NCBI RefSeq assembly: GCF_014203225.1
Contig: NZ_JACHIO010000007.1
Location: 62,001 to 126,000, forward strand
Reading direction: 5' to 3'
Source: Granulicella mallensis
Lineage (GTDB): Bacteria > Acidobacteriota > Terriglobia > Terriglobales > Acidobacteriaceae
DNA length: 64,000 bases
The notes under the pieces are model-generated. The model saw nothing but the letters and a program-made list of their open reading frames with translations. It ran no database searches and was not told the DNA's origin. Position numbers and translations under genes: made by a program. Position 1 is the first letter of the stretch. The number at the start of each line of letters is the position of its first letter. Shown in pieces: positions 49,495 to 64,000 of the stretch.

Positions 49495-51015
49495 CTACGG
49501 AGCTAATTCGGAAGAGAATGTTGACGCCGGTAAATCGGCTGAGTTGTAGATATTCCCGTCCACCACACCGGACCATCCGAAACGAACATACATAGGTTGA
49601 AGGATTTCTGGCGCGTTTACAAGGACGGTCTCTCCATCGATACGTGCCGTTGCGGCGATGAAGTGGCGGTCAGGCCCCGCGAGTTCGAATGCGCTGAGTG
49701 GTTTTCCTTTGGACGTGAGTCCCTTCGAGTGATCGAACCAAACGCGCATGCTGAACGATCCATCTGGATTGCTCTCCCTGGTAGCTTCTCGAAAGAGCGG
49801 CCCGGTCGAGAGAATGGCTTCACCATACACCAGGTGCCTAGCAGTTAGAGCCAGACGTGCTCCAACCGTTTGTTTATCGCTGGGATGGACATTCTTTGCA
49901 TCGCCGATATCCAGCGTAACGGTCATGGCCGTGTTGGCGACATCGAGCGTCCGGCGCTGTGCATCGCGGACAGCACCCCAATCCTCTGATGGAGAATCAA
50001 AACTCGAAATCTGCACGTAGAGAAAAGGAAGATCACCTTGTGCAAAGTGACTCCGCCAGTCTCCGATCAACGCCGAAAACAGAGATTTGTAATAAGGAGC
50101 GCGATCATGTGCGGAGTTCGATTCGCCCTGATACCAGAGGAACCCCCTAATCGTCATCGGCGCGAGCGGGGAGATCATGCCGTTGTATATCCCTGCCGGC
50201 ACCCATGCTTCCTCAGCGGGATGCCATGGGTGCTTCGGAAGATGCTTGCCTGCGTGCTGAGCCGCTTCGTCTTCGGCCTTTTCCGAGGCAAGGATCGCGT
50301 TGAGGTCTCTTTGCTCGTCGGCAAAATGGGCTCTGCTAAGGAACGCAGGCAGAAGCTGAGCATTGGAGCCAAGCGTGTTCAGTGAAATCCAGGAGTCCGC
50401 GGGGGTTCCTCCCCAGGTCGTGTCTACCAATCCGATTGGAACGTTCTCTTGATGCGAGATATCGCGTCCGAAGAAATAAGCGATAGCGGAAAAATATCTC
50501 GCGGTGTCGGGCGTACAAAGCGTCCAGACGTTTTGTTGATCAGCGAGTGGAAAGTCATTGCTCTTATGCTCGAGCCGGAGCAGCCTCAACTTTGGCTGTG
50601 TGGCGGCAGCAATTTCGTTTTCCTGATTCTTCAGGGGCGTGTCTGGCCCGAACCCTTGCAGCGGAAATTCCATATTGCTTTGTCCGGACGCAATCCACAC
50701 ATCTCCGACCAGGAGATCGTGTACTGCCACATCCGCGCCGTCGCCTGTAATCGTTAGGACATACGGCCCTCCGGCGCTCTCAGAGCGCAGATAGAGACTC
50801 CATATCCCGCCGGCATCTGCAATCGACGCAACCTGTTGTTGATGGAAGTGAGCCACCAGGTGCGCACCGGGGGCCGACCAACCCCACACGTGGATCGGAC
50901 GATCGCGTTGCAGGACAGCATGATCGGAAAAGAGGTGTGGGAGGCGAACTTCGGCGTTAGCTTTCGCCCCCTGCGAAGTCAGGGCGAACAGAATTAATAG
51001 CTGAAGCCATTTCAA
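49495..51015 (-). CDS. Sialate O-acetylesterase (SASA family)
   Basis: A perfect GGAGG eight bases upstream supports the TTG at 51015 as start, giving a clean signal peptide (KWLQLLILFALTSQGAKANA); an ATG at 51030 lacks a ribosome site. The SGNH-type domain has the nucleophile motif WIASGQSNMEFPL near residue 110, VDTTWGGTPADSW, GFLWYQGESNS, and the catalytic His in NVHPSDKQTVGARLA near residue 385. Such enzymes remove O-acetyl groups from sialic acids or from other sugars such as xylans. With two acetyltransferase-like proteins nearby and GalNAc genes upstream, it may handle acetylated, mucin-like or bacterial glycans. Confidence 0.86.
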   Translation of the reverse strand: MKWLQLLILFALTSQGAKANAEVRLPHLFSDHAVLQRDRPIHVWGWSAPGAHLVAHFHQQQVASIADAGGIWSLYLRSESAGGPYVLTITGDGADVAVHDLLVGDVWIASGQSNMEFPLQGFGPDTPLKNQENEIAAATQPKLRLLRLEHKSNDFPLADQQNVWTLCTPDTARYFSAIAYFFGRDISHQENVPIGLVDTTWGGTPADSWISLNTLGSNAQLLPAFLSRAHFADEQRDLNAILASEKAEDEAAQHAGKHLPKHPWHPAEEAWVPAGIYNGMISPLAPMTIRGFLWYQGESNSAHDRAPYYKSLFSALIGDWRSHFAQGDLPFLYVQISSFDSPSEDWGAVRDAQRRTLDVANTAMTVTLDIGDAKNVHPSDKQTVGARLALTARHLVYGEAILSTGPLFREATRESNPDGSFSMRVWFDHSKGLTSKGKPLSAFELAGPDRHFIAATARIDGETVLVNAPEILQPMYVRFGWSGVVDGNIYNSADLPASTFSSELAP

Positions 51016-51030
51016 AGGTTGAACCTCCAT

Positions 51031-51353
51031 GCAATGTCGCGATTTTACCTGCCAGATTGGGAGATTGCTCGAGCGAATATCTTCTATGCATACTGGCCGA
51101 GAAAGACCGTTCGCTTGTACCTGCCGAATATTGATTCAGTATTCGGTGATCATTGGCACTCTTCGACTTCTTTTAGGTTGCCGCTCTACGCACTATGAAC
51201 CCTCGAATCTCCATCGCGCAAAGCGTCTACGCTATCTCGACAGAATCGCACAGGCTAAGCTTGCAGCACAGATATCTGCTCAAGTACAGGACGAACCGCA
51301 CGGCTTTGGGGGAGGGCCGTGCGGTTATTTACTTTTGTGGGGTGGGTATGGCT
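51031..51353. other. Intergenic region with terminator
   Basis: No credible gene. It holds the hairpin at 51294-51326 and the upstream region of the esterase gene. Confidence 0.5.
51294..51326. terminator. 11-bp hairpin downstream of the broken lipoprotein gene
   Basis: A perfect 11-base stem (51294-51304 with 51316-51326) and an 11-base loop. On the plus strand it is followed by a T-rich stretch; on the minus strand, where the neighbouring gene ends 28 bases earlier, no T-run is present. Confidence 0.55.
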
Positions 51354-52804
51354 TCAAGGAGTAACACCATCATTTACCTGCTTACAGTCCATACGTAACG
51401 TGCCATTGTCATTGAAGAGGAGTCCAGTGCAACGCAATGGGCTATTCAACGCCGGGGAAGATGTGTTAAGAAGAAGGGCATCGGGTGCGACGTAGGCTGT
51501 GACGAAGGATGGACCGCCCTCGATGGGAATCGGGTCAAGGGAACTCAGTGCCAAGGTGTAAACAGTAAAGTTTCCGGTGGAAGAAATAGAAACAATGCTG
51601 CCATCGATTGTTTGGGGCACGAGGGTAACGGTGCGGGCGGGGGTAAAGACGCCTGGTGCGGTAGAGAAGGTAGCGGTGCTGACGGCGACCTCCTGGCCCG
51701 GAATCAGGCTAGCGAGGCTGAAGCTGGCAGTGAAGGGAAGAGAGGAGACGTTTGTAATCTGCGGCGCAGTCTGAAAGGTTGCGTTGTTAAGTGTGAAGAC
51801 TGGAGGGCCGATTGGATTTGCGGAGAGATAGCTTCCTTGTTGTTCCAGGAGGTCGAGGCCGAAAAGAGGGGATGCACCAGCAGGAGGCGTAGGGGTGATG
51901 TTGGTGATAGCTCCGGTGGCCAGGTTCTGTGCAGGCAGATCGTAGGCCGTGACGCGCGTGGCGAGAAGCGTGCCGTCGGATTGGATGGCAGCGTCGAAGT
52001 TGATCAGTGAGCCCGCAGCAAGATCGGCGAGATTGGCGACGCCCTGGAAGATGGTGCTGCTGTTGGTGGCGACTGTAATCGGTGCATTGGTTGTGCTTTG
52101 CAGATACGAGGAGCCGATACCGCCGCTGGTGGGAATTGTCCCAGGTAACAACGTGGTGAAGGTAGTACCGGATAGCGCTGTGATGTCTCCGCTGAGATTG
52201 GAAAGTTTACCGTTTTGTGCGGAGATGGGAGAGCTTGCGATCGTGACAGCGGTTAGCTGAAAGGCGGGCGTTATGGTGTCGACGCCGGTTAGGGTTCCGT
52301 CGTAAGTGCCGGATTGAGCTGCCAACAGGTTGAGATCGAGCACCATGGTGTCGCCGGTAATTGTGATGGGTGCCTGGATAGCAACGGCGGGAGTTTCGAC
52401 CTGCCCCCCAAAGTGAAGGTTTCATCCACGATGCCGCCATCGGGATCGGGAGTTACAAATGAGAAATAAGGATTATCCAGGGTGATGGTTGCAGAGGTAT
52501 AGACGTCTTGAGGCACGGTGGCGATGAGAAGAGGGGCGGCTGTGCCATTGGAGCGGATAAATTCAGCTTGCTCCGCTGAACTGATGAGCGAGACTGATTT
52601 GCCGGACTTGTTTGTGAGCGTAAGGCTGCGGATCGTCATGCCGAAAGACGGGAAACGATCATTAGCGGTGCTGGAGACCAGAAGCGTGACGTTTGTATTT
52701 CCGGTGAGGCCGCCGGAGCCGGAAGGAGCGTTTGAACCGCAACCAGTGAGAAGAGGAAGGGCCAGCGTTCCAAGGAGAAACGGACGAGGTAAAAAACTAC
52801 GCAT
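51354..52804 (-). pseudogene. DUF5666-like lipoprotein, interrupted by a one-base frameshift
   Basis: The first part (52804 down to about 52410) starts with a lipoprotein signal ending LLTGCGS and continues through a beta-rich segment to DETFTLGG. At a run of six C's on the plus strand (52404-52409) the frame breaks; if one more base were present, translation would go on as GGQVETPAVAIQAPITITG into the second frame, which is open to 51354. The combined protein is about 480 residues with repeated beta-sandwich units, including LAAGSLINFDAAIQSDGTLLATRV, which resembles DUF5666. Either this is a true pseudogene, a phase-variable gene or a sequencing error in the homopolymer. Function unknown; surface-anchored. 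Confidence 0.7.
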
Positions 52805-53078
52805 GATTGGGCCACCTAAGGCTTAAAACCTGTCTAACTTAACACGTCAGAATAAGAAGAGTTGTCACAGATATCGATATTACTCACCTTCAGATGGGCA
52901 GCTTCAGTCCGCCATGTTCACAGCCGCCAAGGTACGGCGCAACCGCAACGCTTCTCGCCGATGACACAGTGCTCATCCCGGTGGAATAAACGAAGGAATA
53001 GACATAAGCAGCTTCAGCCAAGGAACCGATTTGAATACGGTTGAGACTTACACCCCGTCGGCTTGCTGGCTTAAGTCA
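52805..53078. other. Short intergenic region, nothing recognised
   Basis: No convincing gene, RNA or repeat seen. Confidence 0.4.
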
Positions 53079-54255
53079 TTACTTACATATACCCAGCACC
53101 GAACTGTCGTGACACTTCTCCAGCAAGCTAGCCAACCTCGGGTCTTTCTGTCTTTTGAGCGAAGGTATGGAATACTTCAGGAAATAGGCGTCAGCCACGG
53201 CCCTTATCTGGGATCTTTTTCCATCAGCAGTCCGTGCGGAGATCATAAAAAGCATTGATGCGGAGATAGCGACCGCATAAACGGTTTGCCTTTGCCTTGG
53301 AGGCCATCTTGCAAGGGACACTCCTGCGAGCACCATCCCCGCCGCAGCCACATAGGCAAAGTAAAGTCCGTCAGAGATGAAATAGAGAAAAAAGAAGGCC
53401 GCACCCGGCACAAGAAATACAGTCATACTGCGCGCAACAGGGTTCCGAATGAATGCGGCCATCCCGAGGCATACAAAAGGTAGTAGCACACCCCAGGTCA
53501 TGATCGTTCCGGCAAAAGCGTGGAACACATTGACGAGAGCATGTATGCCAAACTGCCCGCTCAACACACCCTGGGCCAGGCTATGTACCTGATCGCCAGA
53601 AGAGCTTAACGGTGAGACCAGGTTGCCGCGAATGCGCTCCATTGTCGGAATCCACCAGGCCGCGACAATAGGGATTGCGACCGAGATACCAATCAGCCGT
53701 TTTTTTCAAGGGAAACCGGAGAGCCTGGAGCACCATCCACGGAAGTACAAAGACACCATCGGAGGGACGAAATCCTGTCATCACGGCCCAGATCATGCAT
53801 CCCCAGATGAAAGCCTGCTCACACTCCACAACAAGAATAAGCAGAGGAGCAAAGAACGTCATGGTGGCGTAAGTGCTATGTATGTCGCTCGAGAACCAAA
53901 CGGTTGGCAGACAAACATACGCCAGAGCGAGCCAAAAAGGGGATGGAATGGCTAATCGTGACACAAGAAGGTAGAAGACCGCAGCTCCTGAAGCGCTTAA
54001 GGCTATGTTCAGGACTTGCAGCGCACTCCCAGGTGAGACATGCAGCAAGTGAGAGAGAAAGAAGCCTACTGCATTGAATAAAAAGTAGCCGGGAGCATGG
54101 ATGACAAGTACTCCGGATTCGATGGAGTGGATATGACGAAAGGCATCGACATAGTAGGGGCCTGATGCGCTTGCTATCCGAAGAATGAGTGTCAGCAGAA
54201 CCAGGACGCCACAGCGAAATACTCGTCCTTGCAAAAGCAAATCAAAATCCTTCAT
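53079..54255 (-). pseudogene. GT-C-like multi-pass membrane protein, interrupted by a one-base frameshift
   Basis: Two frames belong together. The first (54255 down to about 53700) has an early loop with PYYVDAFRHIHS and APGYFLFNAVGFFLSHLL and several membrane helices, as in membrane glycosyltransferases of the PMT/ArnT kind. At a run of seven T's on the plus strand (53700-53706) the frame breaks. With one base fewer, translation would continue LKKRLIGISVAIPIVAAWWI into the second frame, which contains further helices and ends at 53079. The full protein would be about 390 residues. An A7 run in the message could also allow slippage, so it may still be expressed. Family placement is tentative. 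Confidence 0.65.
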
Positions 54256-54681
54256 GCGAATTCAGGTTCCTCTAAACTTTCTGCCATCGCGTGTTTTCGC
54301 CACGTAAGGTCCTGGAACCGACGCGTTATCTAAGGAATTCGGCAATTGAATGTACTACAACAAGCTAAACGCAAACACTGGAGATGCTTGTCATTGCTTT
54401 GTCATCTTCTATAACGAGCCTGCTGGCAGTTGGCTACCACCCCATCGTCTTCTGAAGCGAACCAGGCAGCCCTCAGCAAATGATGGAGAGTTGGAATGAT
54501 CGCCCGCCTCCTCGCAGATGCTCCTCATCTGAGATGTTGTGTTCCTCAGCCCATTCGTAACCTGCTTGATGCCCGCTACCTCAATGGGAGTGCGCGCCAG
54601 GCGCCGGAGTTAGATCCTCGGATGCGGGCGATTACGGGTAGAGAGCGAGTGAGGTTTTTGAGGGGTTTTCACTAACTTTCC
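54256..54681. other. Intergenic region upstream of ParB fragment
   Basis: About 425 bases with no frame I trust. The last part probably includes degraded 5' sequence of the ParB-like gene, since the fragment's frame is blocked by a stop at 54673. Confidence 0.4.
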
Positions 54682-55008
54682 TTGCTTGTGGAATCTCCCA
54701 CGAACCCTCGCCAGCATTTTGACGAGGACGACTTGAAAGAACTCGCGGACACCGTTCGCAAATCCGGCATCTATCAGGCTATTCTTGCCCGACCGAAGGA
54801 AGAGCATTTGCAGATCGTCTTCGGAGCGCGGCGCTACTGTGCCTCTCTGCTGGCCGGGAAGGAAACCATTCCCGCACTCATCCGCGAGATGACCGACGCG
54901 GAAGTTCTGGAGGCGCAGCTTGTCGAAAACCTTCAGTGTCGCGACGTTCACCCGATGGAGGAGGCCGAAGGCTTCCCGAATCGCTTTTTCTGCGCTTCGA
55001 GTTCCTGA
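54682..55008 (+). pseudogene. Truncated ParB-family N-terminal domain
   Basis: The frame starts inside the domain: LVESPTNPRQHFDEDDLKEL is the ParB beta-strand and NPR segment, followed by SGIYQAILARP, the nucleotide-binding FGARRYCASLLAGKETIPALI (normally G-x-R-R) and VLEAQLVENLQCRDVHPMEEAEGF. At this point, where a full ParB continues into its helix-turn-helix, similarity ends and a stop follows. A stop codon also lies just upstream of the conserved part. So this is the remnant of a plasmid- or phage-type ParB/RepB gene, not the chromosomal parB. Confidence 0.75.
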
Positions 55009-55397
55009 ATACTCTTTGGATTCGACCGAGCCATGCGACTCAGCATACAATCGTAGCGAGCCGAGCGCAAACGCTTCGCGAGCGGTTTGATGGTTGGCGG
55101 AAGCAGTAGGTCGCGGGTAAAACTGAGCAACACTTAGAGATTCAAACGGGATCTCGCGACGTCCAGGACAAGCAGGAGAAACAGGAGTTGCAGCGGGCCG
55201 GCCGACTGGACCGGATAGAACAATACCTATCTGCGCAAGTCCAGCCGGTACCCGCAACTCCCGACCCGCATCCCTCCGCATAGCCGTCGCTCTTCGACTT
55301 GGCACGAACAAAGGACGCTTGTGCCGAGTGGGATGTACTCAGCACTAAAGGGATGGGTATCGTGTGGGAAGACTTTGAGGGTCGGACATATATTTGA
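55009..55397. other. Region of gene debris between ParB fragment and membrane protein
   Basis: Short coding-like pieces occur on both strands, but none is long enough or recognisable. A charged, helical piece on the plus strand (around 55140-55240, DVQDKQEKQELQRAGRLD) looks like part of a decayed gene. The region fits mobile-element debris. Confidence 0.35.
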
Positions 55398-56933
55398 ATG
55401 AAATTATTTCTCCGTAAATCGCAAGTGAAATATAGCCACATTGCGCTTCTCGCATTTGTCTTCATTGCCACTCGAACCTGGGTATGGATGTCCGGAATAA
55501 GATATCCGACGAACGAGGCAACTGGTCTCTGGCAACTGCTCGATCTGGATCTACTGCAGCATCATCTTCTACGCAGCCTTTACCTGCTGCATTCCCAACC
55601 TCCCGCGCTCAACATACTTGTCGGCTTGGCCGAGAAGGCTGCAGGATTACACTATGGGTACGTGATCGTTGGCGCGCAGTTGCTTCTTGCACTCGCTGCC
55701 ACTCTGGCAATCTATCTTGCTTTGATCGGCCTTGAGATATCTCCCCTCCTGGCTCTTTCTGTAGGTATTCTCTTGATCTTCAATCCAACTGAGATTACCT
55801 ATGAGTTCGACGCCCTTTACTCAGAGCTCTGCTACGCCCTGCTTTGTTTACTGACGCTTGCAATCGTCTGCTTTGTACGCAGCCGGTCTAGCCTCGCTCT
55901 TTGGTCGTTGGTAGGTCTAATGGTCTGCCTTACCCTAGTGCGTTCCACGTACCAATGGGTCTGGATGTTTGCTGTACTGGCCGTTCTCTGGTGGAACTTG
56001 AAGAACACCAGACCTCGCATCCTCAGTGCAGCTCTCATCGGCATCTGTCTTTCCCTACTCTGGCCGGTGAAAAACTACATCGTGTTTCACCACTTTACAT
56101 CCTCGACCTGGGCTCCTTTCAGCCTTGCCAAGCATTGGCAGAGCAACGACCCATCCCTCGAACGCTGGAGTCAAGAAGGGAAAATTTCTACCTTCCCATT
56201 GGCTATCGTTTCCGACCAGGATCTCGCAGCGTGGCTGCGCGATCGTTGGCAGGCAAAGCCAAGTAGCAGTCCACAGCTGGACGATATCGTGAAAAAGACT
56301 GGTGGAGACGTCAACTGGAACTCCCGTGCCATGTTGCGCATGCACGATGCTCAGGCACGCGACGTTTCCTTTCTCATCCGCCACCATCCGAAACCTTACT
56401 TCTTCGGTGTGGCCGTCGCTGTCTTCGACTACTTCAGACCATCCTCCGACTACTACTTAATTAACAGAAAAGATGACAATGCAGCTAAGTACGCTGCGGT
56501 GGTCAACTTGGATCACGCTACACGACGCCTCTGCTGCAACATCTTCGGTATTCCGCCAGAGGTGTACTCAATTCTTAGCGCGCCGCCGCCTCCGCGACAT
56601 GCGACTGTAAAGACGCGGCTGCAGAGCATATGTGTGGGAGCCATTGTCTCCTACTTCATCGTGCTCGCCGCTCTTCTCTCCCTGCGGCGTCAGACGATGT
56701 GGAGCAACAGCCCGCATCGCAAACTGATCATCATGGTGATGTCGGTGACCATTGGCTATGTCTTCCTGGTGAGCAATCTCTTGGAGGTGGGCGAGAACAT
56801 GCGCTTTCGTCTCGAGACCCAGCCTCTGGTCTTCGTGGTCTTGGCCATCTTCCTTCAGCAACTATGGGGTGAACGGTCACGCAGACGGCAGTCGAATAGC
56901 TCTGAGGCTGCCGAAAATCAACTCACCGGATAG
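55398..56933 (+). CDS. Multi-pass membrane protein, GT-C glycosyltransferase-like
   Basis: 511 residues with about ten hydrophobic helices. The layout, an early acidic/aromatic loop after the first helix (WMSGIRYPTNEATGLWQLLD, then HSQPPALNILVG), many helices, and a polar soluble stretch in the middle (residues 240-330), resembles ArnT/PMT-type lipid-linked sugar transferases, which use polyprenyl-phosphate sugars at the periplasmic face. I see no motif that proves catalysis. The ribosome site is weak. It could be functionally related to the broken membrane protein at 53079-54255, since both have similar design. Confidence 0.55.
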   Translation: MKLFLRKSQVKYSHIALLAFVFIATRTWVWMSGIRYPTNEATGLWQLLDLDLLQHHLLRSLYLLHSQPPALNILVGLAEKAAGLHYGYVIVGAQLLLALAATLAIYLALIGLEISPLLALSVGILLIFNPTEITYEFDALYSELCYALLCLLTLAIVCFVRSRSSLALWSLVGLMVCLTLVRSTYQWVWMFAVLAVLWWNLKNTRPRILSAALIGICLSLLWPVKNYIVFHHFTSSTWAPFSLAKHWQSNDPSLERWSQEGKISTFPLAIVSDQDLAAWLRDRWQAKPSSSPQLDDIVKKTGGDVNWNSRAMLRMHDAQARDVSFLIRHHPKPYFFGVAVAVFDYFRPSSDYYLINRKDDNAAKYAAVVNLDHATRRLCCNIFGIPPEVYSILSAPPPPRHATVKTRLQSICVGAIVSYFIVLAALLSLRRQTMWSNSPHRKLIIMVMSVTIGYVFLVSNLLEVGENMRFRLETQPLVFVVLAIFLQQLWGERSRRRQSNSSEAAENQLTG

Positions 56934-57138
56934 GCCAACTTTCTAACTGAAGGATATGTACTCACTGAAAGGGTCATTTCAGCAGCTCCCGTTGTGGGTG
57001 ATGTGTCACCCTACTCCCGATGCGAAGCAGCGTGCTCTTTCTCATGCTGGATCAGGAGAGGATTTCAGGGCTGCCACGGACGGCGGTGACGCGTCCACAG
57101 ACGCTGCAAGGCCGCCTCCGAAGAGATGGCCTATGGCT

Positions 57139-57369
57139 TCATTGAGCTTGGGATTCAGATTGCGCTGACTGCTTGAGCAACAGCCGCCTACAGAGATAGA
57201 TCGACCCGATGGCGAAGACAACAGCAAGCGCTTTCCATGCTTCCGCCCAACCGAAGAGCCAAGCAATTTTGTCCTGCCAAGCGATGCAGTAGAGTACGCC
57301 GAATATAAATCCAAGCGAGCACAACCAAACGGTTTTCATGCGACGAGTTGAACCGCCAACGATGCTCAT
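57139..57369 (-). CDS. Small membrane protein, unknown
   Basis: A 76-residue product starting at the ATG at 57369, which has AGAGG just upstream; the frame stays open further, to 57522, but without a ribosome site. Two membrane helices (TVWLCSLGFIFGVLYCIAW and LAVVFAIGSIYLCRRLLL) flank a short aromatic loop, and the C-terminus is polar. No family is recognised. Confidence 0.5.
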   Translation of the reverse strand: MSIVGGSTRRMKTVWLCSLGFIFGVLYCIAWQDKIAWLFGWAEAWKALAVVFAIGSIYLCRRLLLKQSAQSESQAQ

Positions 57370-57996
57370 AAAACCTCTAGACATAAAAGAGAAGAGGGCA
57401 CCTAAGACGGCAGGAACAATCAACCGCTCTCCATGGCGAGCGGTTGAGCAAGCTGGAACCGCAGTCAGAAAGGGAAGAGAGTGAGGTTGCGCAAAAGAAG
57501 ATAGGACGCTCAGCTTGAGCACGTGGTACCTAGTGGTCCCACGTGATATCGCAGATGTGTCCTCTATGTGTCTTGAACTAATATGGAGCCAAACCTGGCT
57601 TCCGCTAAGTCTTTTATAATGTGGTGGCCAGAGACGGGATCGAACCGCCGACGCCGGCCTTTTCAGGGCTGCTTGGCAAAGTATCTAAGCCTCTTAGAAC
57701 TAGCGTAAGTTGCTGAGCACGAGTAGCTTAGGGCGACGCGGGTGTAGGATCACTTAGGACGAAATCGGATCATTTCTACCTTACGACGTTCGGGTATTGT
57801 TCGGAGCCTTTTGGGGCAACGCGCCAATCTAATCATTGAAGATGGCTCGTACAGACCGCACTCTACGCCGCACTCTACGCCACTGGGAACACGAAAACGA
57901 GCCGCAACTGGACCACAATATGTGGTCCAAGCCTCCCGACAAGCGAATCATTGACGCTGTCGTCTTTACCTCTCGATAAGCTAGGATCAGAAAGAA
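57370..57996. other. Intergenic region with tRNA fragment at an island edge
   Basis: About 630 bases without a gene. It contains the tRNA-Phe 3' fragment (57622-57673) and a 12-base tandem repeat (57856-57879, unit CCGCACTCTACG). Confidence 0.5.
57622..57673 (-). tRNA. 3' fragment of a tRNA-Phe (GAA) gene, probable attachment site
   Basis: Read on the minus strand, the sequence gives an anticodon loop CTGAAAA (anticodon GAA), a variable region, a T-arm with GGCGG, TTCGATC and CCGTC, an acceptor strand TCTGGCC and the terminal ACCA. The D-arm and the 5' acceptor strand expected upstream are missing or unrecognisable, so this is the 3' half only. Tyrosine recombinases integrate into tRNA 3' ends and leave such duplicates. 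The retained 3' end faces the left, so the island would extend to the right, where a dead integrase, a toxin-antitoxin-like pair and an Argonaute system are found. Confidence 0.7.
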
Positions 57997-59910: not shown

Positions 59911-60264
59911 TCGGCGGTTCGAAGCCCCGAGCTGGCCACTCTAGAGGTTGAGACTATCCAGCTTAGGGAAGGCCGCTGGGTTCTGGCGGATCTTGAGGGG
60001 AGAGGAAGGCGCATTCGGACGGTCGCAGCCAATCAAAGAATCAATGCCTGGATGACTACGGGGGGAATCGAAGAAGGGAGACTGCTGCGGTCCATCTCCA
60101 AGGGCGGGAAGGTAGGAAAGAGTCTGAGCGACTGGTCGGTCTGTTCAGTGATCGAGCACTCAGCGAAAGAGATTGGGATTGAGCGGTTCGGAGCCCACGA
60201 TCTCCGCCGGACCTGCGCTAAGATTTGCTGAAAGAGCGGCGGTGATCTGCAGCAAATCAAGTTC
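59911..60264 (+). pseudogene. Tyrosine recombinase (phage integrase) remnant
   Basis: The frame gives AVRSPELATLEVETIQL (position of the first catalytic Arg), then RIRTVAA, and the highly typical FGAHDLRRTCAKIC, the box II H-x-x-R motif. An in-frame TGA at 60229-60231 stands where family members have an Arg, and coding similarity goes on as KSGGDLQQIKF before it breaks off. The C-terminal part with the catalytic tyrosine is absent, and a stop also precedes the first Arg. This is a dead integrase, probably the one that put the island in the tRNA-Phe gene or a later one. Confidence 0.8.
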
Positions 60265-60784: not shown

Positions 60785-61119
60785 TACACCGGATCATCTT
60801 CAACTGGGGTGCCCAGATCATGCCAGTCCAGTTCAACGGCCGGGTACTGGATACGCCGACGATTGTGACGTTGCAGGGCAAATTCCTCCTCATCGCCTTC
60901 ATGCAGTATGAAGCGGCAATGCTGCCTCATCGGCGTTGGGTCGAAGAGTTCACCAGACGGGTCTTGCACGACGCTGTGTGCGTTGAAGTAAGTAAAGCTG
61001 TCAAAATCTTCAATCAACCAGCCTCGAACTACTTGGAAGTCCACATGCTGTCGCACGTAGGCTTCTGCATTCTCGTGGCATTGATTGTGAGCGGCGCCTT
61101 CCACCGGATTCATGGGCAC
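60781..61119 (-). CDS. Conserved hypothetical protein with C-H-x-N motif
   Basis: 112 residues from a GTG at 61119; the frame is open up to about 61190. The core shows NQCHENAEAYVRQH, FQVVRGWLIEDF, and YFNAHSVVQDPSGELFDPTPM, a set of Cys, His, Asn and Asp that looks like an enzyme active site of an uncharacterised small family often found in scattered bacterial genomes. No assigned function. It begins about 75 bases after the short Argonaute stop and may be transcribed with it. Its role in that system, if any, is unknown. Confidence 0.6.
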   Translation of the reverse strand: MPMNPVEGAAHNQCHENAEAYVRQHVDFQVVRGWLIEDFDSFTYFNAHSVVQDPSGELFDPTPMRQHCRFILHEGDEEEFALQRHNRRRIQYPAVELDWHDLGTPVEDDPVY

Positions 61120-61194
61120 AAGAAAGCGCCTTGCTGCCTCCGGGCGTCCAACCTCGCGCCCAACTCCGCATCGGAAAGAGGGATAGTCATAGGA

Positions 61195-62664
61195 TTAGAT
61201 AAAGAAACGGAAGCTGGGCAGGATGATGCCATTCTCCGGAATGCACTTCAGAATATCTCCGACGCGGCGGGCTGCTCGTAACGTGATGGGCTCTCCTCCA
61301 TCGAACTGGGTGTTGTTCCAATTCAGCTTCGACAGCGACAACATTTCTCGCGCGATCTGTTCGACGCTCGTCTCAGCCTTTGTCACGGATAGTTCGAGCG
61401 GCCTTGGAACATACATCCCCGGATAGGTTTCAAAGAACTGAACGCTTCCACGCAGGTAGAGAAGACCACTGTTTTCTTGGAGCTTCAGGAAGCTGCCTCG
61501 CAGCGGAGGATACGTCCCTTCTCGATAAAGCCTAGTGAACGAAGGCTTGACACTAATCATTTCGACCGATTCGATGTCGTGTTCGTTCGCAGCACTGCGA
61601 AAGCCTTCCATCTCTCCAGCCGTCAGTCGCGATGTTTTGTGCACCACAAGCCGAGCCGGACTAGTGTGATGTTCCTTGCGATATACAGCGATCGCACTCT
61701 TTAGCAACGCTTTGGCATCTTCCTTCTTTAGATGGGGTTGCCGATCGTTCTTATCAAGTTCTGCCTGCGCTCCTTTGACGATCACACCTTCCCCCCGCTC
61801 ATTGAAGACCTGAGCGACGGACGTCATGATCCGGTCCCCGTCGAGACTCCGATAAAAGCTGATGCCTACAAAGCACGTCGTCAGTTCACTCGGATTGCGC
61901 AGCAATCTCCACGGAGCTCCCCCTGCTTTGTAGTAGAGTGCGGCGTGAATGTTCCATGCTCGTGTCGCCTCATCCTGCAAAGGCAAAGAGCTGGCCCTTG
62001 ATTTCGGGTTGCGCTTCGCCTGTCCGCCATAGGTAGAAGGACGGATCATCTGAATTGGCACGCCAACCCGCATGACTTCGGCCTTCAACAGGTCATGGAA
62101 AGCGGGGCTCGGAACGTCTGTTTCCGTCGCCTCCGCGCTTTCATCCAGATCCTGCTCCTGTGCGTCTACCTTACGCGAGACCCGTGCATCAACCGCATCG
62201 AGAACATCTTTGGGTGGCGCGCACACGATGACCATCGGCCCACCGCTTTCACGCACAGCATTCACGTGTTCAATGAAAAGCTTGACGAAGTCCTGTACGA
62301 GGGTAGGACTCCCAGGCGTCTGGAGCAGCGGGTCGATCTCCCGTTGACGAATCGTCGAAGTCCAGCGGTCGTGAAACATCAATTGCGAGCGGAACGCTGT
62401 ATCCTCGCGAAAACCCGGAAAAGGCGGAAAGAGATTCCCAAGACGGCTTTTCTTGGCGTCGATCCCGGCTTCACACTTTTCGAACCATGCCCGCACAGCG
62501 GCCACGCTCTCTGCCGTTCCGACAAGTCCCACGCGGATCTGCTGCGGTGCGGTCGCCTCGCCGAGATCCAATGGCCCGTGCTCTATGAGGCCATAGCGAA
62601 TGTCCACATGAGTGCCGCCATTGCCAAATTCGAGTTCAGGCTCATCGAAGAATTCGAATTTCAT
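61195..62664 (-). CDS. Short prokaryotic Argonaute (MID-PIWI), catalytically inactive
   Basis: 489 residues, without N-terminal, PAZ or APAZ domains. The MID region leads to WNIHAALYYKAGGAPWRLLR (about 237-256), the diagnostic guide-binding segment of prokaryotic Argonautes. The PIWI domain begins with TTCFVGISFYRS (about 262-273), goes through SPARLVVHKTS and TFPG-like FETYPGMYVPRPLEL, and ends with LNWNNTQFDGGEPITLRAARRVGD. The first catalytic Asp position of active PIWI domains (V-G-x-D) is Ser269 here, so slicing is not expected. It shares an ATGA overlap with the upstream DREN-APAZ gene, forming one operon. By analogy the pair detects foreign DNA by guide and unleashes the partner nuclease. 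Confidence 0.88.
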   Translation of the reverse strand: MKFEFFDEPELEFGNGGTHVDIRYGLIEHGPLDLGEATAPQQIRVGLVGTAESVAAVRAWFEKCEAGIDAKKSRLGNLFPPFPGFREDTAFRSQLMFHDRWTSTIRQREIDPLLQTPGSPTLVQDFVKLFIEHVNAVRESGGPMVIVCAPPKDVLDAVDARVSRKVDAQEQDLDESAEATETDVPSPAFHDLLKAEVMRVGVPIQMIRPSTYGGQAKRNPKSRASSLPLQDEATRAWNIHAALYYKAGGAPWRLLRNPSELTTCFVGISFYRSLDGDRIMTSVAQVFNERGEGVIVKGAQAELDKNDRQPHLKKEDAKALLKSAIAVYRKEHHTSPARLVVHKTSRLTAGEMEGFRSAANEHDIESVEMISVKPSFTRLYREGTYPPLRGSFLKLQENSGLLYLRGSVQFFETYPGMYVPRPLELSVTKAETSVEQIAREMLSLSKLNWNNTQFDGGEPITLRAARRVGDILKCIPENGIILPSFRFFI

Positions 62665-64000
62665 TTGGCCTCTCCCATCGGAATCTCCATCGGCAAGAGG
62701 CCCTGCAAGCTGCTCTGCTGGTCGAGCGCCGCCGTGTCTGGATCATTTTGCTGCCAGGACTTGTCCTCCACTCCGATGTTCACATTGATCGTTTTCAACT
62801 CGCCGAATATGATGGGCGGTTGAGGACCGGCGAAGAGTCCGTCCTCCGGCTGAAGGTGGTTTGCCCAGAAGAGCACGCAACTCAGCACGGCGCGATTTCC
62901 CTCGATCTCTTTGATCTTTTTCAATCGCGACTCGTGGAACATGTCACGTTTGAAACCGTCACTGGTGAAGCGGTAGGTCGGTGTGACCTCAAGAAACCAG
63001 GCACCGTCCAAAAAGCGAAATTGCCCGCGAAAGGCAAGGTGTCGACGATAGTGGAAGACCCTTCCATCCTTGGCCTTGCTGCTGAATGGGGAAACGACGC
63101 TCAGGCCACTCGTCCGCTTGAGCGATTTGTAGGATTGCTTTCGCTTTTCCCCAACCATCGCGAAGCAGTCGTCCTTCGGCCAAAACCGCAGACGGGCGTC
63201 AACCTGTGCGCGCAGCGTCTTGTTCAACAATTGGACGAAGAGGCGCGTCCGTTCGGGATCGTCAGACTCCGACCACTCCACGGTGTCGAACCCTTCGACC
63301 GTTCCAGGCTCGCAGATAGAGTCCCAATCCGAGTTCGATAGATCTTCGAAACTGACAAGCTTCTTCTCCCAAATAATCCATCCGGACGCGGGGTGAATCT
63401 TCTTCCGATTCAGAATCTCCCATATATCCGTGGGGTCCCGATACTGCGTCGCCGCCACATAGACCACAGCGGGCAATCCTTCAATCGCAAGTAGGTTGCT
63501 CCAAAGACGTTCGGCAGTGGGCCGTGGCGGAAGGTATAACCCTCCCTTCGGTGCGCCCACGCGCACGAGTTCCGACAGGGACGCCGTACTAAAGCGGTGT
63601 TGTTCTTTTCGATAAAGAATGGAGGTGCTGTCGCCGGGCTTCCAGTCCCGGAAAACCTCGGGAATGGAAACCCAGTAGCCCTGCTGCGTCTCTGGATCGG
63701 AAACGATCAGAATCACCGGAAGATTGGTTTTAAGCCAGTACTGCAAATCACTCGGATCGCAGGTATAACGGAATTCGTCGACGGCATCACGGATGGACGA
63801 GACAACTTTACTTTGTACGGCCAGATTCAGGCCCAAAGGGACTCGCTTAGCGGGGTCGAAGAGCTCGATGTAACCATCAATCCCCACTTCGTTCGGTCCG
63901 CTGGCCGTCCAGCGGGAGCCCATCTTCAAGAGAACCCCCTCGATGAAATTGACTCCCTGCTGGCCAGTTTGTCCCGTGGACGACAAGATTTTTGGCCGAA
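62661..64000 (-). CDS. DREN (PD-(D/E)XK, DUF4365)-APAZ effector of short Argonaute system, 5' end possibly beyond window
   Basis: A TTG at 63986 is the last possible start inside the window, but the frame stays open to the edge (PKILSSTGQ...), so the real start may lie outside. The N-terminal 180 residues form a PD-(D/E)XK nuclease fold of the DUF4365 type: an initial helix with NFIEGVLLKMG, then NEVGIDGYIEL (Asp37, counted from the TTG) and LGLNLAVQSK (Gln58-x-Lys60). The rest, from about 190, is an APAZ-like domain (AVVYVAATQYRDPTDIWEIL, LFVQLLNKTLRAQVDARLRFW), which binds the partner Argonaute. In SPARDA systems this nuclease degrades DNA and RNA in the cell after activation, causing cell death or dormancy. 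Confidence 0.83.
   Translation of the reverse strand, partial: RPKILSSTGQTGQQGVNFIEGVLLKMGSRWTASGPNEVGIDGYIELFDPAKRVPLGLNLAVQSKVVSSIRDAVDEFRYTCDPSDLQYWLKTNLPVILIVSDPETQQGYWVSIPEVFRDWKPGDSTSILYRKEQHRFSTASLSELVRVGAPKGGLYLPPRPTAERLWSNLLAIEGLPAVVYVAATQYRDPTDIWEILNRKKIHPASGWIIWEKKLVSFEDLSNSDWDSICEPGTVEGFDTVEWSESDDPERTRLFVQLLNKTLRAQVDARLRFWPKDDCFAMVGEKRKQSYKSLKRTSGLSVVSPFSSKAKDGRVFHYRRHLAFRGQFRFLDGAWFLEVTPTYRFTSDGFKRDMFHESRLKKIKEIEGNRAVLSCVLFWANHLQPEDGLFAGPQPPIIFGELKTINVNIGVEDKSWQQNDPDTAALDQQSSLQGLLPMEIPMGEAK

Follow-up and report, generated by a model that had tools for sequence, protein, structure and literature searches.

At this locus of Granulicella mallensis, a short piece of a tRNA-Phe gene separates variable DNA on its left from a 37.5-kb block of genes on its right, and the block ends at an intact tRNA-Phe gene. 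The window referred to below is the whole stretch of DNA that was analysed, 64,000 nt long, and corresponds to C7:62001-126000, where C7 is the contig that carries it in a genome of 6.47 Mb and 52 contigs. Features within the window are collected in Table 1. From the fragment rightwards the order is an HTH-ImmA/IrrE gene, a DUF4411 gene, a dead integrase, a SPARDA operon, a series of stress, transport and sugar genes, a Xis-like gene and a tyrosine integrase. The genomes used most for comparison are Granulicella sp. L60 (L60), the related genomes G192 and G007, and G002, the closest relative searched (one contig of 6,237,577 bp), which we take to be Granulicella mallensis MP5ACTX8.

Table 1. 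Features around the tRNA-Phe fragment (window positions unless given on contig C7).
Feature	Position	Strand	Evidence or remark
Variable DNA, read as remnant of an earlier element	51214..57601		G002 synteny ends at C7:113214; ~6.4 kb
ParB_N domain fragment in left remnant	54682..55008	+	Pfam PF02195, 2.2e-23
Outer flank, 20 nt, read as arm of the earlier element	57602..57621	-	Identical to the 20 nt after the intact tRNA-Phe of G002
tRNA-Phe(GAA) 3' fragment, nt 25-75 with CCA	57622..57672	-	50/51 nt identical to intact gene; read as displaced attR core
Inner arm, read as attR end of the 37.5-kb element, CTTAG-type motifs	57673..57806	-	88-92% over about 133-153 bp in L60 (two) and G192
HTH + ImmA/IrrE (Peptidase_M78) protein, 397 aa	57997..59190	+	Pfam PF06114, 8e-9
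DUF4411 protein, 168 aa	59191..59697	+	Pfam PF14367, 6e-28
Broken tyrosine-integrase remnant	59911..60258	+	PF00589, 31.8 bits, one internal stop; 106-aa piece 2.2e-6
SPARDA block shared with G007, 3,171 bp	C7:123070-126240; window part 61070..64000	-	96.0% DNA identity
Short Argonaute, 489 aa	61195..62664	-	PADLOC pAgo_I 1.4e-169; PDB 9qbp_B 9.4e-107
DUF4365/DREN-APAZ partner	62661..63986	-	Pfam PF14280 4.4e-22; PADLOC 3.1e-122; PDB 9qbq_A 3.8e-47; 9jsb_D DREN-APAZ 5.5e-41

The fragment departs from the intact gene only at tRNA nt 27 and has its CCA end at 57622. The preliminary description had reported a 52-base tRNA-Phe 3' end with CCA and without a 5' half, all of which stands except the length, as base 57673 is mismatched and 51 nt remain. 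It had also predicted a complete tRNA-Phe beyond 64000, and this gene was located at C7:157158-157232 on the minus strand, that is, on the same contig and strand and 37.5 kb to the right, with its 3' part duplicated as the fragment. The match between the two reaches E = 8e-25 across 78 bp within the same genome, which excludes a chance match. A scan for tRNA genes gave what is expected of a mere tRNA fragment: ARAGORN called none in the window, and the Rfam tRNA model scored the fragment at 18.6 bits, below its gathering score of 29. No ORF of at least 50 aa overlaps 57622-57672, and the missing 5' part of the tRNA is replaced by DNA that is also found inside the tRNA-Phe fragments of L60 and G192. 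The island had been forecast to lie to the right and to hold the ImmA/IrrE pair, the dead integrase and the Argonaute operon, and all of these, the pair being ImmA/IrrE with DUF4411, do lie between the fragment and the intact tRNA-Phe.

Several genes of the block point to an integrative element. The HTH_17/Xis-like (excisionase-like) gene and the tyrosine integrase (Phage_integrase) adjoin the intact tRNA-Phe and are directed towards it. This tRNA-proximal integrase is interrupted by an early stop and, at a later point, by a change of frame, in places where the L60 copy reads through. Both integrases of the element (two PF00589 matches) are broken, each with an internal stop, so the 37.5-kb block is probably immobile and excision driven by its own enzymes is probably not to be expected. 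When the integrase was compared with plasmids, no match was found at 1e-20, and among phages there was one match, at 31.5%. At the other end of the block, the DUF4411 protein is presumably the toxin partner of the ImmA/IrrE gene beside it. By Pfam, the middle cargo includes a D-2-hydroxyacid dehydrogenase, a GMC oxidoreductase, an aquaporin, a GH15 enzyme, a split BrkB and a sugar MFS transporter, as well as an iron permease, a Penicillinase_R/M56 pair, a trypsin-PDZ protease, a ClC channel, a Usp protein, a Na/H exchanger and an S9 peptidase. The Pfam scans took in 34 of the 42 listed ORFs (at least 70 aa) from the fragment to the tRNA, all but 8 short ones, and one ORF besides. In this set there is no relaxase or conjugation gene of the kind that an integrative conjugative element would carry, and no capsid, portal or terminase gene as in a prophage. 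The BrkB/YihY-type gene occupies two overlapping frames (C7:136520-136876 and C7:135960-136571) and so seems broken too. A stand-alone trypsin-like protein of the same island (C7:152637-153476) matches the PADLOC candidate PDC-S45 (1.2e-11). Direct repeats of ~440 bp, 80.6% identical, flank the 27-kb stress and sugar cargo at C7:126871-127307 and C7:154124-154566; the second ends at the start of the L60-like integrase module, and the proteins inside them have no Pfam match.

The Argonaute pair is, as judged from homology, a SPARDA operon. Its two genes overlap by 4 bp; the Argonaute is of the short kind without an N-terminal half (489 aa, aligning full-length to short Argonautes) and is accompanied in the same operon by a DREN (DUF4365)-APAZ partner. 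NbaSPARDA, in the excerpted account of that system (PMC12205087), likewise consists of a short Argonaute and a DUF4365/DREN-APAZ partner in one operon. SPARDA systems as described in that excerpt proceed from a guide RNA through DNA recognition to collateral nucleic-acid degradation (PMC12205087). By homology, the operon here would sense invading DNA via an RNA guide and would then mount a collateral nuclease response. Matches to the Argonaute occur in 8 of 41 genomes, its own included, the best being in G007 (98%) and the next best in G016 (40%). G007 belongs to another species and carries the counterpart of the shared block at G007:C1:3360016-3363176. The neighbouring DNA cannot be aligned, and the only other DNA in common with that stretch is an integrase (70.6%) and pieces of tRNA. 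The operon sits there between the split pieces of a tRNA-Phe fragment and the 70.6% integrase, 268 kb from the tRNA-Phe of G007, and adjoins HamA/HamB (Hachiman), a methyltransferase and a QueC-like gene in a defence-rich locus. Proteins beside the tRNA-Phe of G007 are only 62-91% identical to those here; set against the 96% of the SPARDA block, this makes a recent exchange of a defence system between two species visible. The split piece in G007 (G007:C1:3354007-3354249) consists of nt 19-55 of tRNA-Phe followed, after ~190 bp, by nt 60-75. The genome studied here also has a second, distant Argonaute-like gene (~30% identity) outside the island, at G000:C13:133607-135082.

The two ends of the 37.5-kb block can be followed in other genomes. 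The integrase end (C7:154568-157238, 2.7 kb) is 88% identical in L60, where the integrase at tRNA-Phe is 95% identical over 308 aa and its reading frame is open. At the fragment end (C7:119614-119806), identity to two L60 fragments, which lie 123 and 138 kb from the tRNA-Phe of L60, reaches 91% over 193 bp and 94% over 185 bp, and the inner arm in G192 is 88% identical over 153 bp. Between these conserved ends the only DNA in common with L60 is one 82-bp patch, and the rest of the cargo is unrelated. This conservation of ends whose cargo is unrelated is the best independent evidence for 57622-57806 as the terminus of an element.

Whether everything between those ends arrived together is a question on which we find the balance level. 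The block could be composite, with an Argonaute part (including the IrrE-DUF4411 pair and the dead integrase) and a middle cargo added later, only the ends being original. The 3.17-kb SPARDA block recurs in G007 without its surroundings, the second broken integrase adjoins it, and the ~440-bp direct repeats bracket the middle cargo; these repeats are old, however, and no empty inner junction has been seen. The position of the 82-bp patch, 87 bp inside the attR arm of L60 and 6.5 kb inside it here, just past SPARDA, would fit a later insertion; against this, the other copy of the patch (L191) has a different position with respect to its fragment. The patch was rejected for this reason as a means of dating the SPARDA insertion and is kept as weak support.

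Comparison with G002 shows how far the variable DNA extends. Synteny runs along the left flank until C7:113214 (window ~51214) and along the right flank from the tRNA on, with most proteins at 91-99% identity; between these points there are 44 kb here against ~2.2 kb in G002, which include a transporter gene and a stub of an integrase. Apart from the match to that stub, the ORFs between fragment and tRNA have no good match at the tRNA-Phe locus of G002, in agreement with an island to the right. Taking the fragment itself as the boundary of the island, as had been proposed, does not agree with this comparison: DNA absent from G002 extends ~6.4 kb further left, and the outer flank opens with an element-type arm. 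The identical 20 nt in G002 adjoin its integrase stub. Because the DNA absent from G002 reaches left to ~51214 and the 20-nt outer flank is the G002 arm, the fragment is better read as an internal joint between two stacked elements than as the outer edge of an island.

The following history can be put forward. An element of ~37.5 kb with a tyrosine recombinase would have entered the anticodon part of tRNA-Phe, leaving the fragment as its attR scar. Its attP, carrying the 3' part of the tRNA, would have restored the whole gene at C7:157158-157232, so that the old 3' part came to lie at 57622-57672. The element would have arrived next to one already present at this site, making an island from ~51214 to the tRNA, and the stacked island would no longer move by an enzyme of its own, both integrases being broken. 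Taken as a whole, we consider very probable a history in which a ~37.5-kb tRNA-Phe element left the fragment as its attR scar, was stacked beside an earlier element and is now immobile. The part of this history that can be read from the DNA itself is the integration, through the oriented direct repeat, the Xis-like and integrase genes, the termini in L60 and the absence of the block from G002. The older element draws on the 20-nt arm, the ParB_N piece and the absence of its DNA from relatives, where 8 of 24 have a match to the left remnant, in patches of at most 170 bp only.

An alternative that we regard as unlikely takes the fragment for the actual outer limit of a single island and 51214-57601 for ordinary chromosome, lost or replaced (by 2.2 kb) in G002. 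It would explain why the left end has no tRNA scar (no tRNA-Phe 10-mer was found in C7:112800-114200 or in the matching stretch of G002) and why the 6.4 kb hold no integrase (best E = 0.8 in window 51000-57660), and G002 has other DNA there, so it is no pristine reference. It does not account for the 20 nt outside the fragment, which are the arm beside the tRNA of G002, for the similar arms outside other fragments (12 of 21, below), or for 6.4 kb that contain a ParB_N piece and have no match of more than 170 bp in the 24 relatives. Two further comparisons suggested in the preliminary description gave little help in delimiting the island. No clean empty site was found in G002, whose tRNA-Phe locus holds the integrase stub and transporter gene, on the downstream sides of tRNA-Phe in 14 relatives, or in those 25 named loci, out of 29, in which the tRNA could be located; 4 of these 25 offer less than 200 nt downstream, and some of the named loci belong to the same genomes as the relatives. 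GC content was uninformative (0.556 in the island against a mean of 0.568, sd 0.021, at 28 tRNA loci of the same genome), and deviation in GC or tetranucleotides was discarded as island evidence; deviations are larger to the right of the tRNA (GC 0.60) and in parts of the left flank. Among the tRNA-Phe downstream regions compared, no gene occurs in all, and several contain integrases. Four loci (L103, L105, L106 and L119) have, directly after tRNA-Phe and on its strand, members of another reading-frame family with integrase-like C-terminal motifs, one of them with a weak Phage_int_SAM_5 match; the fragments of M8UP30 and M8US30 begin at nt 55.

The arm can be used as a search pattern. In many fragments the inner arm carries GATTC...CTTAG, which precedes the core by ~15 nt. 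The intact tRNA-Phe of this genome is followed by the arm CATTCTAAAGCACTTAGC, in which the same motif stands as a direct repeat. The pattern CTTAG-N(5-25)-GCCCTGAAAAGGCCGGCG occurs at 23 places in 20 of 300 genomes of the family, representing 7 of 79 genera, and its reversed form has 0 matches in the same 300 genomes. Arm counts omit two of the 23 matches (G007 and G150, spacing 6), where CTTAG resembles the D-arm of the tRNA. In all 21 retained matches the arm and core are 14-16 nt apart; 15 of them have GATTC at a constant position, against 1-4 of 21 in 25 other windows of comparison. An ACTTAC/ACTTAG outer arm is present no more than 36 nt beyond the fragment in 12 of the 21 (0-3 in 27 other windows of comparison), the outer flank of the remaining 9 having no such motif. 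A second type of outer flank, with TTAC...CACAC immediately beyond the tRNA end, was noted in S156, M8UP22, G022, G150, G311 and G007; it recurs across several genera and could be the arm of another element or an old chromosomal flank.

Placement of the fragments has the orientation expected of integration. Within 300 kb of the tRNA on its contig, 26 of 28 fragments are on the same strand and downstream, and two (G050 and G122) are on the opposite strand. The 28 are what is left of 59 pieces after removal of 8 that stop short of nt 72, 18 on another contig and 5 more than 300 kb away; weak 75-80% matches to other tRNAs and near-complete gene-side copies in G011 and G008 are not in the list, and the S156 piece is counted once. 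One of the three sets of results behind the list comes from 15 genomes preselected by a match to the arm pattern, and the frequency of fragments in these 15 is no sample of the family. Among the 26 fragments downstream of their own tRNA, the start falls at nt 25-28 in 18, at nt 55 in 5 and elsewhere in 3, resembling the anticodon and T-region crossover classes given in the excerpted Islander paper (PMC4383910). That the fragment at 57622 is a chance or pseudogene copy of tRNA-Phe unrelated to integration is very improbable: fragments do occur on other contigs, far from tRNA-Phe or, in the two nearby cases above, on the opposite strand. Against it stand the arm sequence that L60 and G192 have kept immediately inside the fragment, an integrase at the other end and the absence of the block from G002.

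The 37.5-kb block has much in common with the islands collected by Islander, as far as the excerpted paper describes them (PMC4383910). These comprise an intact tDNA and a same-strand 3' fragment downstream on the same replicon, as found here. They are 2-200 kb long with the fragment outside conserved coding sequence, as is the case for these 37.5 kb, and the crossover in the anticodon region corresponds to their subsite A (PMC4383910). An integrase between the two is also part of the Islander definition, and here it is represented by broken genes only, the two PF00589 matches having internal stops (PMC4383910). The locus further differs in that more variable DNA follows beyond the joint. For tandem islands the excerpt asks that each member have its own integrase and fragment, whereas window 51000-57660 contains no integrase (PMC4383910). 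Along with 3919 islands, 125 tandems of at least two and 4 of at least three are given there (PMC4383910). A composite island made of more than one element at a tRNA gene is also known from the tRNA-Trp gene of Shewanella putrefaciens CN-32, which, in the excerpted report, differs in the tRNA and the phylum (PMC8978831).

Arrays were also seen in other genomes. The tRNA-Phe of G170 has four fragments downstream on its own strand, 33, 44, 79 and 92 kb away, and beyond every one of them stands an outer arm of the ACTTAC/ACTTAG type. The arrays of G170 and L60 each contain one PF00589 match, there is none between the tRNA and the second fragment in G311, and a tblastn search of the G170 and G311 stretches, with six integrases from two families as queries, gave no match. 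One integrase per element was thereby ruled out for G170 and L60 (one each) and for G311 (none), and the arrays fall short of the one integrase per member that the Islander excerpt demands (PMC4383910). Entry at the intact tRNA and entry at an old scar would both give the same-strand, downstream picture that is observed.

In the openly licensed literature, we found no account of this tRNA-Phe element family, hotspot or arm motif and no paper containing both 'Granulicella' and 'tRNA-Phe'. Landing in a tRNA gene is a known kind of event; the tRNA-Phe element family is apparently new. Our broader proposal, to which we would give even credence, is that Granulicella, Edaphobacter and related acidobacteria harbour an undescribed family of tRNA-Phe elements with fixed ends, namely attP arms (repeat ATTCTAA...ACTTAG) and a Xis-Int module, which freely exchange their cargo, including SPARDA, and stack at the tRNA, so that the row of scars would give the order of arrival. 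The locus matters in several ways. The fragment gives an exact end point for an island bearing an Argonaute defence operon in the Granulicella mallensis genome, and the short arm-plus-core pattern finds similar elements in other acidobacteria irrespective of their cargo. If the tRNA-Phe arrays are chronological, they would preserve the order in which soil bacteria took up defence and metabolic genes. Edaphobacter aggregans DSM 19364 (G051) has three exact 51-nt fragments (nt 25-75) on contigs C46, C38 and C30, along with shorter ones; most are followed by an element arm, and they may be a long array broken by assembly.
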